Origin: Candidatus Pacearchaeota archaeon | Lineage (GTDB): Archaea > Nanobdellota > Nanobdellia > Pacearchaeales > GW2011-AR1 | NCBI GenBank assembly: GCA_017609405.1 | Contig: JAFCDZ010000003.1 | Coordinates: 1-50,273, forward strand | Length of the DNA stretch: 50,273 bases | Direction of reading: 5' to 3' | Part shown: positions 14,311 through 21,110 of the stretch, piece by piece | How the letters are laid out: every line of letters begins with the position of its first letter | Numbering within the stretch: the first letter of the stretch is position 1 | Notes under the pieces: generated by a model | What the model saw: the letters and a program-made list of their open reading frames with translations, nothing else | Databases searched by the model: none | Told to the model about the DNA's origin: nothing | Translations under genes and position numbers: made by a program

Positions 14311-16086
14311 TTACCTTATTAATTTTATTGTGAAATTTCCGTAATACTGGTTAAGAAGTTTTATTTGAGTATAATTTAAATCAGTTATTCTTTTTTCCTT
14401 GTTTTTTTCAAGTTCTTCAATAACTTCCTCCATATTTGATTTTTCTACTTTATTGCTTATTTTGAGGACATTTTCTTTTTCAATCACAAAAAGATTCTCT
14501 CCAGTTAAGATTAATTCTGCAGTTTCTTTTTGTTCACTTTTAGAATATTCTAATAACATTTTTTTATTTTTGTTTTCTTCTATGTCTTTGATTTGAATAT
14601 ATGTTTGGAGGCCATTAATTAGGTTTGCAGACTCTTTTCTTATCTCATCAACTTTCTGGAATCCAATATTTTTCTTTTTTATTTCTGATTTAGCTTTTAT
14701 TATTTTATTAAGAGCTTCTAATTGTCTTGCTGTGAAGACACCTTTTTTTACAAACTCTTTTTCAAACTCTTCTAAAAGGGCTTTTTTTGTTTTCTTTTTG
14801 AATATTTTTTCAAGAAGTTCAAAAACTTGTTCATATAAATTTTCAATTGTTCTTTCTTCTGCCTTTTTTTCTATTTCTTTTCTTAATTCTTTTAATCTTT
14901 CTAAATACTCTTCAGTATTTTTCAAGAGCCTATCAATTTCTTTTCCACTTATTTCTTTTAATCTTCCATGCTCATAATCTTTGTAAAGCTTTACAACTTC
15001 TGCAAGAGTATCAATGTATTTTTTTTCGAGAATTTTTTCTTTTTTTAAGAAAACTCTTTCCATTTCTTTTACTGTTTGTTTTGGTGTTGGTGGTGCTAAT
15101 CCATACAACATTAAGATTCCTTGGCTTGGGGTTAATGCACTCCAATAAATATCATGAACAAGAATATCCATTAGTGCTCTATGAGCTCTTTTTGTTCCTT
15201 GGTCTCCAGAAGACATAAACATATTTATTGCTTCTGGGCTTGGTTTTAGCTTTCCCATTCTTAGTAGGGCTTTCCATGGAAGGAATGTCCCTCTGTCATG
15301 GAGCGGGAAGCCATCTCTTATGAATGTAAACATAACTGGAACAGCATCTTTTACACTATCCCAGAATTCTGTTAGTAAATATATCTGTGGCTCTAATTTA
15401 TTTTTTGCTCCAGCAAGGAAGGAAGCTTCACTTACCATCTGGTATATTTGAGCTCTTAGTCTTTCCTTTAACTCTATTCTTGACATTCTTTTTACATCTG
15501 TGTCATTGATTATAATGAAAACATCTACATCAGAGGTCTTTGTTGCTTCTCCTCTTACTAAACTTCCTGCAATAACATAACTTACAACATATTTATCAAA
15601 TTTTTTTAATACAAGTGCTTTATGTATTTCTGCTACTCTTAAAGCATCAAGGAAACCAGTGTCATAGATTGGGAAGGATAATCCAATTGCATTTACTAAT
15701 TCAAACCTACTGTCAAGACATGCTTCAAATACATCAACAGGGGTTTTTATCTGTAGCCATATTTTTCTATCTTTTTTTTCTTCTATTTTTCTAATAATAT
15801 CTTCTTTTATTTTTGGGATATCTTTATAATGTTTTTCAGGAATTAACATGTATAGGTGAATGTGTTTCTCTGTTTCTTTTGGAACTTCTTCTTCCTCAAT
15901 AAAAAGGTCTATGCTTTGCGGTGGTAAAATACTAAGAGAAAGGGTGAAAGGATATTTTTTTATAATGTATTTTTTTAATTCTTCAAGTTCTTTTTTTGTT
16001 TTTTCCAATTCATCCTTTGCTTTTATGTTATTTGTCGGAAGCTCTGGTATTTTCGGGTTTTTGTAATTTTCTATCTTTTCATCCAT
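14311..16086 (-). CDS. nucleotidyltransferase-domain protein with long helical C-terminal region
   Basis: VIAGSLVRGEATKTSDVDVFIIIND; PSQGILMLYGLAPPTPKQTVKEMERVF. Confidence 0.75.
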   Translation of the reverse strand: MDEKIENYKNPKIPELPTNNIKAKDELEKTKKELEELKKYIIKKYPFTLSLSILPPQSIDLFIEEEEVPKETEKHIHLYMLIPEKHYKDIPKIKEDIIRKIEEKKDRKIWLQIKTPVDVFEACLDSRFELVNAIGLSFPIYDTGFLDALRVAEIHKALVLKKFDKYVVSYVIAGSLVRGEATKTSDVDVFIIINDTDVKRMSRIELKERLRAQIYQMVSEASFLAGAKNKLEPQIYLLTEFWDSVKDAVPVMFTFIRDGFPLHDRGTFLPWKALLRMGKLKPSPEAINMFMSSGDQGTKRAHRALMDILVHDIYWSALTPSQGILMLYGLAPPTPKQTVKEMERVFLKKEKILEKKYIDTLAEVVKLYKDYEHGRLKEISGKEIDRLLKNTEEYLERLKELRKEIEKKAEERTIENLYEQVFELLEKIFKKKTKKALLEEFEKEFVKKGVFTARQLEALNKIIKAKSEIKKKNIGFQKVDEIRKESANLINGLQTYIQIKDIEENKNKKMLLEYSKSEQKETAELILTGENLFVIEKENVLKISNKVEKSNMEEVIEELEKNKEKRITDLNYTQIKLLNQYYGNFTIKLIR

Positions 16087-16241: not shown

Positions 16242-19100
16242 TTAAACTTTTAAACTAACAATCTTACTTATTCCTTTATTTATGCTTACTCCGTAAAGTG
16301 CTGTTGCGTTTCTAATTATTTCATCATTATGGGATATTATTATGTATTGTCCTTTTTGAATATATTTTTTTAACCATTCTGCTAATCTGCTTGAGTTTCT
16401 TTTGTCAAGTGCTGCATCAATTTCATCAAGGATATAAAAATAATAAGGTTTTAGTTCCTGTATTGCAAAAATAAGGGATAAAGATACAAGGGTCTGTTCC
16501 CCTCCTGACAATGATGTTACATCAAAATACTTTCCTTGTCCCATTTTAACAACAATGTCAACCCCTCCTTCAAAAGGATTTTTTGAATTTTCTAGTTCGA
16601 GATAGACCTCTCCCTTTGAACTTAATTTTGAGAAATTTTTTGAGAAATGTTCATTAATTGAATTGAATGTGTTAAGGAATGTTTTTTTCTTTTTTACATC
16701 AATTTCATGAATAACTTTTAGAATTTTTTCCTTCTCTTTTTCAATTGTTTCGACTCTTTGTTTAACTGCTTCGTATTCTTTTTTTATCTCTTCATAGACC
16801 TCTAATGCTCTTAAATTTACTGAGCCTATTTTTTCTAAGGCTTCTTTTGTTTTTTGTAGTCTTTTTATAAGAGAGTCCTTTTTATCTCTTATAAATTCTA
16901 TTCCTTGGAATTCAAGCAATTCTTTTTCTAAATTCTCTATCTCTGCATTTATCCTTGCTTCTTCTATTTTTAACATATTACGTTTTTCTTCGTTGCTTCT
17001 TATCTCTGTTTGTATCTTCATTATTTGCCTTTCGTGTTTTCTAATCTCTTCATGAAGGGCATCTCTTTTTTCTATTAATTTTTTGAATTTTTTTGATAAT
17101 TCTTCCTCTTCTTTAAGCATCTTTTCAAGAAGTTTTTCCTTTTTTTCTAAGTCCTTTTTCATTAGTTCTAATTCCTCTTCTGCTTCTTGTTCTTCTCTTT
17201 TTAGTTGTTTTAATGATGCTTCAATTCTATTTTTTTCTCTTCTTTTGAACGCAATTTCAGAATCAAGGTTCTGCTCACTAATTAATGCTATCTCATCAAT
17301 TTCTATTTTTAGTTGCTCGTACTTTTCTTCAACATCTTTATTTTTACTTAGGGATTCTTGGAGAAAAGTTTGTTTTTGTCTTAATTCCCCTATCTCTTTA
17401 AAATCTTGTTTTATTTTTTCTTTTATCTTTTTAATTTGTTCAGTTTTTTCATTTATTATCTTTAATTTAATAATGTCTGACTCTCTTTTTCTTATCTCTT
17501 CTACTACTTCTTTTTCTTTTTCAATCAGTGTTTCTATTTTATTTTTTATTTCCTTAAGTTCTTTTAGATTCCTCTCTTTTTTATTTTCTTGTTCTAATAT
17601 TTGTGGTTCAGTTTCTCTTTTAATTGATGCTATGTGCTCTTCTGTTATCTTGTTCTTGCATAAAGGGCAAACATCTAAGCTTGCAATTTTTTCAATTAAT
17701 TTTTTTAACCTTTCTATCTCGCTTTCAGAAAAATTTATTTCTCTTTTTATTTTTTCTTCCAATTCTTCAAGATTTTTTATTTCCTGATTTAATTTTTCCT
17801 CTTTTATTTTTAGTTCTTTTATTTTCTCTTCAGAAGAATTAATATCAAAAAGTTCTTTGGTTAATGTTTCTATTTGCTCCACTAAAAAATCTGCTTCCTT
17901 GTTTTGTTGCTTCAAAAGAAACTCTTTTTCTTCAATTCTCTCTTTTACAGTTTTTAGTTCTGTTTTTGTTATGTAATATTTTTTTCTCCTTATTTCAAGC
18001 TCTTCAAGCTGTTTTTTCTTTTTTTCAAATTCTTTTTGCTTCATTGAGACTGTTGGTGTGTTTACCTCTAACTCTCTTATTTCATTTTCTAATTCAATGC
18101 TCTTGTTCTCAATGTCTTGTTTTTTGTTTTGTGTTTCAATAAGCTTTGATTCCAGATTTTCTATCCTGACATTTAATCCCGCTATCTCTGCTCTGATATT
18201 AGCAATTTCTCTGTTCAATTGTTCCTGTTCTAATCCAGTTGAACTTTGAATTTTTGAATTAAGTTCATTTATCTTTTCTTTTAGAGAGTTAATTTCTTTT
18301 TCATAAGATATTATTTTTTCTTTTAACTTGTTTATCTTATTGTTATGCAAGTCTATTTCAGAGGTTATCTTTTTACTCTCTTTTTTTCGGTTATTTAAGT
18401 CATGAAATAATATGCTTGCTTTTAATCTTTTTACATCGCTCTCTAATTTTTTGAATCTTAATGCTTGTTGCCTCTCTTTTTCAAGATTATTTAAATAAGA
18501 TGTTCTTTCTCTTAATATTGCAGAGATTTCTTTTAATTTTTCTTCTGTTTTCTCAAGTTCTCTAAGTGCTTTTTCTTTTCTTACTTCATAAACTGAAATT
18601 CCTGATATCTCTTCGATAATTTTTCTCCTTTCTTCCCCTTTCATTTTTGTAAATCTTTGTATCTCTCCTTGGAGAATTATGTTGAATCCATTTGGATCTA
18701 TTCCTGCTTGAGCTAAAAGCATTAAAACTTCTTGTCTTGTTTTTGTCTCATTATTTATCTTGTATGTGCTCTGCCCATTTCGCTTTATTATCCTTTTTAA
18801 GGTGATTTCGTCTCTATCTATTGCAAAAACCCTTCCTTCATTATCAAATACAACTTCTACATAGGCCTCTTTTGCAGGTTTTATTCCCTCTGAACCCATG
18901 AATAAGAGATTCTTTGCTTTTGACGCTCTCATGGATTTTGCACTTAATCTTCCCAGTACAAAACATAAAGCATCAGATATGTTTGATTTTCCTGAGCCAT
19001 TTAGACCAACAATAACATTTATGTTTTTTGTGAATTCAATCTCTGTTTTTTTAGCAAAACTCTTGAAACCTTGCATCACCAACTTTTTAATGTAGGTCAT
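16242..19100 (-). CDS. smc: SMC-family chromosome segregation ATPase with Rad50-like zinc-hook motif
   Basis: GFKSFAKKTEIEFTKNINVIVGLNGSGKSNISDALCFVLG, ASKAKNLLFMGSE, SLSGGEQTLVSLSLIFAIQ...FYILDEIDAALD; DVCPLCKN in the middle. Confidence 0.9.
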   Translation of the reverse strand: MTYIKKLVMQGFKSFAKKTEIEFTKNINVIVGLNGSGKSNISDALCFVLGRLSAKSMRASKAKNLLFMGSEGIKPAKEAYVEVVFDNEGRVFAIDRDEITLKRIIKRNGQSTYKINNETKTRQEVLMLLAQAGIDPNGFNIILQGEIQRFTKMKGEERRKIIEEISGISVYEVRKEKALRELEKTEEKLKEISAILRERTSYLNNLEKERQQALRFKKLESDVKRLKASILFHDLNNRKKESKKITSEIDLHNNKINKLKEKIISYEKEINSLKEKINELNSKIQSSTGLEQEQLNREIANIRAEIAGLNVRIENLESKLIETQNKKQDIENKSIELENEIRELEVNTPTVSMKQKEFEKKKKQLEELEIRRKKYYITKTELKTVKERIEEKEFLLKQQNKEADFLVEQIETLTKELFDINSSEEKIKELKIKEEKLNQEIKNLEELEEKIKREINFSESEIERLKKLIEKIASLDVCPLCKNKITEEHIASIKRETEPQILEQENKKERNLKELKEIKNKIETLIEKEKEVVEEIRKRESDIIKLKIINEKTEQIKKIKEKIKQDFKEIGELRQKQTFLQESLSKNKDVEEKYEQLKIEIDEIALISEQNLDSEIAFKRREKNRIEASLKQLKREEQEAEEELELMKKDLEKKEKLLEKMLKEEEELSKKFKKLIEKRDALHEEIRKHERQIMKIQTEIRSNEEKRNMLKIEEARINAEIENLEKELLEFQGIEFIRDKKDSLIKRLQKTKEALEKIGSVNLRALEVYEEIKKEYEAVKQRVETIEKEKEKILKVIHEIDVKKKKTFLNTFNSINEHFSKNFSKLSSKGEVYLELENSKNPFEGGVDIVVKMGQGKYFDVTSLSGGEQTLVSLSLIFAIQELKPYYFYILDEIDAALDKRNSSRLAEWLKKYIQKGQYIIISHNDEIIRNATALYGVSINKGISKIVSLKV

Positions 19101-19147: not shown

Positions 19148-19819
19148 TTAAAACAACTTCATCTGCTCTGAATCTCTTTTTGCTCTTTGAAATGTTTCCC
19201 AAGATTTTCTAAATATTCCGTCGTCTTTGTATTTTTGGAGGTATTTTTCAAGAAACTTTGCTGTTATTGGGTCTGAAGCATATCCTGAACCAATTTCAAT
19301 ACCGTATTTTTCTTTTAACTTCTCCATTTCTTCTTCTCTTTTTGTTTTTGCTAAAATAGATGCTGCTGAGACCGGGATATGGTTTTTATCTGCTTTATGC
19401 TCGCAAACTATTTCAAGATTTCTTAAATCATTTATTTTTAATTTTAATTCATCTGTCCAAGAGATTATAGATACTGATGGGCAATCCACAACAACCCTTA
19501 TTTTTTGCTCAGGGTTTCTTTCTATAATTTTGTTGATTATCTCTGCTGTTTTTATTGCCTCAATAGTATTCAGGTTTGTTCTGTTTTCCATGAAGTTATC
19601 CAATTCCTCTGGATGCGTTAGAATTATTTCAAAATCTTCTGCAATTTCTAATATTTTCTCTTTCAAGAATAATCTTCTTTTTTGTGTTAGCTCTTTAGAA
19701 TCCTTTACTCCTAATTTGAATAAATAATCAAAATGTTCTTCTCTGATTAAACAGCCAGCTAAGACCATGGGTCCAATAACAGGCCCTCTTCCAGCATCAT
19801 CAATTCCTAAAACTATCAT
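19148..19819 (-). CDS. rnhB: ribonuclease HII
   Basis: MIVLGIDDAGRGPVIGPMVLAGCLI, VKDSKELTQKRR, HKADKNHIPVSAASILAKTKREEEM; start chosen at the internal Met. Confidence 0.9.
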   Translation of the reverse strand: MIVLGIDDAGRGPVIGPMVLAGCLIREEHFDYLFKLGVKDSKELTQKRRLFLKEKILEIAEDFEIILTHPEELDNFMENRTNLNTIEAIKTAEIINKIIERNPEQKIRVVVDCPSVSIISWTDELKLKINDLRNLEIVCEHKADKNHIPVSAASILAKTKREEEMEKLKEKYGIEIGSGYASDPITAKFLEKYLQKYKDDGIFRKSWETFQRAKRDSEQMKLF

Positions 19820-19901
19820 GGAAGAATTAGATTCTTTTCTTTTAAAAAAGTTTGTTGTCTTTTTTTGCAATTAAAAAATAAAAAAGAAAAAAGGGTGAGA
19901 T

Positions 19902-21110
19902 TTAGTAATAGCTCTCACCCAAGTCTTCTTTTGGCTGTCTTCTTGTTAGTAACACAATTAAAACAGCCACTAAAACAACAAATACAACTGCTAAAATAAC
20001 AGTTATAATTGTTAAAGGGTCTACAGAGTTGTCTTCTTCAGCACTAAGGCTGTAAGCAACTTCATTGATTAAATCGTTGCCTGCGAAAACTTTCACATTA
20101 AAGGTGTAGTCCCCTTCTTTAGCTGCATTTGCTGTAATGGTAATTGACCTGCTTGAACCAGCTGGAACAACTACAAGGCTATCACTAGCACTAACTTCTA
20201 AGTTCTTTGAGCTTTCTGGAACAATTCTATAAACCTTTATGTTGCTTGTAGGGTTTATTAATAATAGCTCAAAGTCTACATTTTCATCTGTTCCAGCTTT
20301 TTTTCTATCTGTTGGAACAATTGTGTTTCCAGGGAATTCATTTTGGATTGTTATTGATTTAACAATTCCCTGTTGTAGGTCGTCTCCACTAACAACAACT
20401 TCCATGTTATAAATTCCAGGTTTTGTGTCATCTGGAATTCTTAAAGAAATTGTTCTGCTTACTGTGTCTGTTTCATCACAGTCTTCATCACAGCTTGGGT
20501 CAATTGGAACAAGGTCTCCTAAATAAGCAGACCTATCTAAACCAAGTGCAGGAATTCTTACTGTTAGATAAAGGTCATTTATGTCATTATATCCTCTATT
20601 TTTCACAACAACATTGACCTTCATGTATTCTCCTGATTTTACAGGACTTTCAACAGAGACTGACTTAATCTCTGCGTTGTATGAAGGTCTCTGCACTCTA
20701 ACAACAAATTCTCTTTCAGTTTTGAAGTCTCCATTCCATATCTTTAAGTTAAGAGTTGCATGGTCTGAAACTTCATCCCATAATTCATATGGAACCTTGA
20801 GAACAAGGCTTTTTCTGTAGCTTATGTTTGCTTCAACGTCAAAAGAAGGTGTTCTGACAACAGCGTCAGTTTTTTCACCTTCTAATTCAGCCTTTATTCT
20901 CACGTCTGTTGCGTTTGTGAGTGCAGTGAAGTACACATCAATTACAACATTACTTCCTGCAGTTACAGACACCTCATTGTGAGTAAATGCATTAACATCA
21001 TCAATATAGACTGAAGAGATGTCTGCTATTTCAGCAGCACTAACTGAAACCATTACAGCCAAGATGCTTACTAGTGCAAAAAGCACTTTACTTATTATTT
21101 TTGTTTCCAT
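19902..21110 (-). CDS. secreted/membrane COG1361-like S-layer-associated protein
   Basis: Signal-like N-terminus, Ig/CARDB-like repeats, C-terminal TM and RRQPKEDLGESYY tail. Confidence 0.75.
   Translation of the reverse strand: METKIISKVLFALVSILAVMVSVSAAEIADISSVYIDDVNAFTHNEVSVTAGSNVVIDVYFTALTNATDVRIKAELEGEKTDAVVRTPSFDVEANISYRKSLVLKVPYELWDEVSDHATLNLKIWNGDFKTEREFVVRVQRPSYNAEIKSVSVESPVKSGEYMKVNVVVKNRGYNDINDLYLTVRIPALGLDRSAYLGDLVPIDPSCDEDCDETDTVSRTISLRIPDDTKPGIYNMEVVVSGDDLQQGIVKSITIQNEFPGNTIVPTDRKKAGTDENVDFELLLINPTSNIKVYRIVPESSKNLEVSASDSLVVVPAGSSRSITITANAAKEGDYTFNVKVFAGNDLINEVAYSLSAEEDNSVDPLTIITVILAVVFVVLVAVLIVLLTRRQPKEDLGESYY

Follow-up and report, generated by a model that had tools for sequence, protein, structure and literature searches.

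The window analysed here is a stretch of 50,273 nucleotides of a Candidatus Pacearchaeota archaeon (contig JAFCDZ010000003.1 of assembly GCA_017609405.1), and the gene of interest is an intact smc open reading frame with an ATG start, the features of which are collected in Table 1. The encoded protein has the ATPase head and the two coiled-coil arms of an SMC protein, with a QGEIQ motif at residue 144 between the motifs listed in the table, and a CPLC motif at the exact midpoint of the chain. Just upstream of smc is a ribonuclease HII gene, a homologue of which occurs in 86 of the 120 loci examined; the other upstream gene listed was found in 85 of 120. The product of the gene immediately downstream of smc has a long Lys/Glu-rich tail, and no homologue of it was found near smc in the other loci examined. 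In six genomes the SMC carries an intein of 523-532 residues at one common P-loop site (between GSGK and S), with Cys as the first intein residue in some and Ser in others; the two that were scanned (L045 and L053) match the Intein_splicing and LAGLIDADG models.

Table 1. Features of the smc gene, of its neighbours in the window and of related loci (positions without a locus name refer to the window)
Feature	Position	Strand	Evidence or remark
smc gene; SMC of 952 aa without hinge, zinc hook at centre	16242..19100	minus	ORF; TIGR02169 E 4e-160
N-terminal part: head, then coiled-coil arm, residues 1-474	17679..19100	minus	collinear with canonical SMC 1 to about 475; AlphaFold helices 169-474, briefly interrupted
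Walker A GLNGSGKS, residues 32-39	18984..19007	minus	motif located in translation
Hook hairpin, residues 475-486, at canonical hinge position	17643..17678	minus	non-helical loop of 12 residues, flanked by helices 424-474 and 487-586
CPLC zinc-hook motif, residues 478-481	17658..17669	minus	PF04423 29.8 bits on isolated tip; C, P, C invariant 57/57
C-terminal part: coiled-coil arm, then head, residues 487-952	16245..17642	minus	aligns collinearly with about 710-1165 of canonical SMC
ABC signature LSGGE, residues 864-868	16497..16511	minus	motif; invariant in two alignments of homologues
Walker B ILDEID, residues 890-895	16416..16433	minus	catalytic glutamate intact; D892 and E893 invariant
Ribonuclease HII gene	19148-19870		just upstream of smc
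Upstream gene	19902-21110		no NCBIfam match
Gene for 591-aa protein	14311-16086		immediately downstream of smc; weak nucleotidyltransferase (MntA-like) match
SMC inteins	L044:362-1933; L045:3694-5289; L053:7786-9354; L054:7712-9307; L055:1112-2707; L056:3722-5299
Rad50 of the order	L140:5706-7757		about 690 aa, short arms, own hook kept

The assignment of the head to the SMC family rests on model scores, structures and phylogeny. The SMC models match the protein at 520-535 bits, TIGR02169 reaching 534.9 bits, which falls below its cut-off of 729.4 bits, as expected for a protein that lacks about a fifth of the model; the Rad50 model NF003034 gives only 121.8 bits against a cut-off of 700, and the model of the ASRP family 113.6 bits against 300. 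The nearest solved structures by sequence are the archaeal Smc heads 5xei and 5xns, and the top Foldseek matches are condensin and archaeal Smc. In a tree of the heads, the Rad50s of the window's order are separated from the SMCs with 100/100 support, and the SMCs of the order stand beside a single clade (100/99) that unites all hinge-bearing SMCs from other orders.

The hinge itself is absent. A profile scan did not find SMC_hinge (PF06470) in the window protein, nor was it found anywhere in the window's genome by a search that was positive in 10 of 14 control genomes. Within the window's order (Pacearchaeota), not one of 132 genomes has a match above the cut-off, and there is a single match below it, whereas 201 of the 212 genomes sampled from other orders of the same class have one; these 212, together with 25 members of the order (none with a hinge), make up the phylum sample of 237 genomes. 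The 11 exceptions outside the order comprise four genomes with SMC fragments and seven without a convincing SMC. The AlphaFold model shows no globular domain in the middle of the protein, either at full length or for the isolated tip. The possibility that the hinge is encoded elsewhere as a separate protein was rejected on the same genome-wide and order-wide absence of PF06470. Two side observations were made: in the single-contig genomes G230 and G255 (family f59, same class) no convincing SMC, hinge or ScpA was found, and these may possibly be lineages without an SMC complex, and locus L077 (genome G205) encodes a hinge-bearing SMC of only about 893 residues, with unusually short arms, that scores above the TIGR02169 cut-off.

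In the position of the hinge, AlphaFold predicts a helix up to residue 474, a hairpin of 12 residues containing the CPLC, and a helix from residue 487, with a mean pLDDT of 96 for a tip-only model; the modelling was done on the monomer only, and the full-length pTM was only 0.41, a low value of the kind that long coiled coils are expected to give. Of the three cysteines in the protein, two are those of the CPLC. The isolated tip matches the Rad50_zn_hook profile PF04423 (cut-off 24.3 bits, E 5e-7), although the full-length Pfam scan does not list it; the same profile matches 29 of 31 tips from the order at E 1 or better, and does not match the central part of either of two hook-less SMCs from the order. 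Conversely, a profile built from the 31 tips and searched against the PDB retrieves the hooks of P. furiosus Rad50 (6zff at 5e-11 and 1l8d at 6.5e-11), the next match following at 0.0056. In an alignment of 57 homologues C478, P479 and C481 are invariant, T486 is conserved in 55 and H489 in 56, and in the flanking coil columns the top residue has a median share of 0.51; the conservation of the CPxC far exceeds chance. Two structural and profile comparisons were uninformative: Foldseek gave no significant match to the tip at all (1l8d at E 0.086), because coiled coils dominate, and the 99.5% probability returned by hhalign for the SMC tip versus the Rad50 tip is inflated by the coiled coil and carries no weight.

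The arms, on the other hand, are those of a canonical SMC. In alignment with the hinge SMCs of sister orders, residues 1-468 correspond to 1-464 and residues 488-952 to 710-1165 of the SMC of locus L084, and since both arms are collinear in this way, the 12-residue hairpin stands in for the hinge and its stalk, replacing about 200-230 residues (~475-700 of a canonical SMC). The arms are also of nearly fixed length: in 50 sequences of the window's family (f1), the distance from Walker A to the CPxC is 444-449 residues and that from the CPxC to LSGGE 381-384 residues. This agrees with the constraint reported for Smc, whose arms tolerate certain lengths only (PMC5344682).

An earlier note, made from the sequence alone, can be compared with these results. 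Its protein of 952 residues held, and the strand, which it had not given, is minus; its SMC-type head motifs held by the motifs themselves, the TIGR02169 score and the head tree, and the outcome that would have refuted it, a head placed inside Rad50, did not occur, the heads grouping with those of hinge SMCs. It had found no recognisable hinge and expected an HMM search to miss SMC_hinge, which both HMM and AlphaFold bore out. A CxxC placed at about 17652-17675 held as the CPLC at exactly 17658-17669, and the expected Rad50 zinc hook was found by HMM on the isolated tip, though unlisted in the full-length scan. Its description of an SMC/Rad50 mosaic thus held for the sequence, with an SMC head and arms and a Rad50-type tip.

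The swap of hinge for hook characterises a lineage and not one genome. An SMC homologue was found in 129 of the 132 genomes of the order, and the number of independent genomes that share the architecture, with invariant motif and constant length, is well above 60. Among the best 80 named relatives, almost every label is Candidatus Pacearchaeota, Nanoarchaeota or simply archaeon, and the few other labels are taken to be naming errors in draft genomes. A survey of relatives for smc, scpA/scpB and rad50/mre11, suggested beforehand as a check, was run and revealed an order without the hinge that has kept the partners and has a separate Rad50. The window's genome encodes the kleisin ScpA (289 residues) and the kite protein ScpB (177 residues); of the 25 genomes that represent the order in the phylum sample, 24 (all but G017) have ScpA, and ScpB is present in 124 of the 132 order genomes. 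The same genome also has a separate Rad50 of 683 residues with its own CPTC hook, which adjoins Mre11, and Rad50-type matches occur across the order. The presence of this Rad50 beside Mre11 means that the SMC is no substitute for Rad50 and, taken with the retention of ScpA and ScpB, identifies the window protein as the cell's condensin rather than a wrongly named Rad50. Measured against the features of the two families, then, the protein meets those of an SMC in its ABC head with Walker A, LSGGE and Walker B, in arms collinear in sequence and length with canonical SMC, and in a genome encoding kleisin and kite, and lacks the central hinge domain; it meets the CPxC zinc hook of Rad50 (PF04423) and neither the Rad50-type head, by score and head tree, nor the association with Mre11, which was judged from gene neighbourhood only.

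The order also contains a third state, namely SMCs of about 800 residues with neither hinge nor CxxC, in families f6 and f7 and part of f4. These loci are L041, L042, L046, L047, L048, L050, L051 and L052, and in f4 and f6 the centre of the hook-less protein is a stretch of roughly 100 residues, partly conserved and apparently helical. The hook-less protein of L047 still scores as an SMC (TIGR02169, 509 bits), and nearly all genomes with hook-less SMCs retain ScpB. When the head tree was rooted on Rad50, the root fell inside a tip group, which is a long-branch artefact, and the history was therefore read from a tree without Rad50, rooted on the hinge SMCs. The hook-bearing SMCs are not one clade (AU p 0.004), the hook-less group likewise is not (AU p 0.006), and f7 is sister to the rest of the order's SMCs (99/96); the simplest history is thus a single loss of the hinge at the base of the order with several later alterations of the tip. 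The hook might have come first and then been lost, or might have been gained repeatedly. As for its source, the T-x-E-H similarity beyond the CPxC tips the balance slightly towards Rad50 over an independent origin. A bolder reading, to which we lean without much confidence, is that one basal event removed the hinge from the whole order and that the dimerising tip of the SMC has been labile since, being a hook in most families and a hook-less helical tip in others.

Several known systems share part of this design. The canonical archaeal and bacterial SMC of SMC-ScpAB (TIGR02169, TIGR02168) is like the window protein in head, arm register, single copy and the presence of ScpA and ScpB in the genome, but has a hinge of about 200-230 residues and no CPxC hairpin, and is about 1165 residues long versus 952. 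Rad50/SbcC (PF04423) shares a tip in which an antiparallel coiled coil ends in a CPxC hairpin, and differs in that the window protein has an SMC-type head, Mre11 lies beside another gene, and a kleisin and a kite are present in the genome. The ASRP proteins (ClsN, which is coalescin, Sph1 and Sph2; PMC9389158) are likewise archaeal members of the SMC superfamily with a zinc hook, but form a separate clade with a head of their own, and the window protein scores below their cut-off. LmuB of Lamassu (PMC10586767) shares the form of a coiled-coil ABC ATPase, in many cases with a CPxC hook, but is a Rad50-like protein of about 650 residues from a defence operon, with E changed to Q in Walker B, whereas in the window protein DEID is intact; its score with the best LmuB model is only 79 bits, and no Lamassu partners were recognised among the neighbours (RNase HII and others), so that it does not qualify as an LmuB. 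The marine actinobacterial SMC (PMC12153180) is also hinge-less, but it is bacterial, has no CxxC, and is closer to the hook-less SMCs of the order. The same design, an SMC head and arms with a hook for a hinge, exists in an engineered B. subtilis Smc carrying the hook of P. furiosus Rad50, with which the cells grow normally on rich medium (PMC5344682); this one is laboratory-made, whereas the window version is natural and fixed in an order. The reverse swap, in which Rad50 receives the hinge of MukB, is functional in fission yeast (PMC6969161), and the two experiments together make a Zn-joined hook-SMC condensin plausible. A previous description of the family would have refuted the earlier note, and none of a natural SMC with a zinc hook was found in the literature searched, in which subscription papers and preprints were thinly covered, so that an earlier description is possible; as far as that literature shows, the swap was probably known until now only as a laboratory chimera.

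The interpretation we consider likely is that the window protein is the single chromosomal SMC, a condensin subunit, in which the hinge has been replaced by a Rad50-type hook and which would form a Zn-joined SMC-ScpAB ring. The SMC head, the missing hinge, the conserved hook, the preserved arms, the co-occurrence with ScpA and ScpB and the separate Rad50-Mre11 are directly supported; it is inferred that the protein binds Zn and ScpAB, forms homodimers and acts on DNA loops, and that the gate has been lost. By the chemistry of the Rad50 hook, two SMC subunits would join tip to tip via one Zn ion held by two cysteines from each CPxC, for which there are no Zn or dimer data. The ATPase heads would engage on ATP and be bridged by ScpA with ScpB, again without binding data for ScpAB, and the closed SMC-kleisin ring would organise the chromosome in the usual SMC manner, loop extrusion and DNA entrapment being inferred. 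Such a ring would lack the toroidal hinge channel, which has been reported as an obstacle-bypass gate that is dispensable for loop extrusion (PMC12647877). The dimerisation through a shared Zn, as in Rad50, that the earlier note had proposed remains an inference, as AlphaFold was run on a monomer only, and so does its suggestion of altered ring opening and DNA loading; the normal growth of B. subtilis with the hook-Smc (PMC5344682) hints that loading may change little, and by analogy a loss of hinge-gated obstacle bypass is the likelier consequence (PMC12647877). Counting against the interpretation are the monomer-only modelling with its low full-length pTM, the non-significant match of the tip fold to 1l8d, and the fact that some members of the order have neither hinge nor hook, so that the hook is not strictly needed in the lineage.

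Four rival explanations were weighed. The CPxC might form a disulphide with a redox role, or a structural element of local importance, with dimerisation via the coiled coil near the tip and not through Zn. CxxC motifs may be redox-active, and the relatives without CPxC keep ScpB, so that tip dimerisation is presumably possible without it; however, the CPxC lies at the exact tip, in x-T-x-E-H surroundings and with a profile match to solved Rad50 hooks, and each chain offers two ligands only, so that tetrahedral coordination of Zn requires, as in Rad50, ligands from another chain, and we regard this rival as very unlikely. Equally hard to sustain is a pairing of the SMC hook with that of the co-resident Rad50 to give SMC-Rad50 heterodimers. 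Both proteins of one cell do bear CPxC tips of one profile type, but their arms are unequal (Rad50 about 690 residues, SMC about 952), there is a consistent difference in the sequence that follows the hook (KxxITxEH in SMC versus xQxV in Rad50), and, to our knowledge, hooks of SMC and Rad50 are not known to pair. That the protein is really a Rad50 or an ASRP (ClsN or Sph) misnamed as SMC, in which case the hook would be normal, is also most improbable and was rejected: the CPxC hook is typical of those families and the E values obtained with NF003034 and the ASRP models are 1e-32 or lower, but the 122 and 114 bits are far below the cut-offs and the SMC scores, the head tree, which contains no ClsN or Sph, splits the SMC from Rad50 with full support, a separate Rad50 lies beside Mre11 in the same genome, and the homology to hinge SMCs spans the arms as well as the heads. 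Finally, an assembly error, gene decay or in-frame deletion, for which it could be said that the window comes from a single draft assembly 87% complete, is all but excluded by the survey of the order, with its many independent genomes of the same architecture.

The preferred reading, a condensin closed by a hook, bears on a part that has been treated as defining for SMC motors, and this order of tiny archaea offers a natural test of the role of the hinge. The engineered hook-Smc had shown that the fold of the dimerisation domain is exchangeable in B. subtilis (PMC5344682), and the natural lineage supports the idea that arm length and register are constrained more tightly than the tip. SMCs without the hinge channel tend towards longer arms (PMC12647877), and since those of the hook-SMCs, unlike these, are not longer, the lineage is informative: with kleisin and kite kept and the arm length nearly unchanged, the question becomes whether hook-closed rings can extrude loops and pass obstacles. 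If the bolder reading of a single basal loss followed by a labile tip is true, the toroidal hinge, thought universal in condensin-type SMCs, would be dispensable in nature, including its obstacle-bypass gate.
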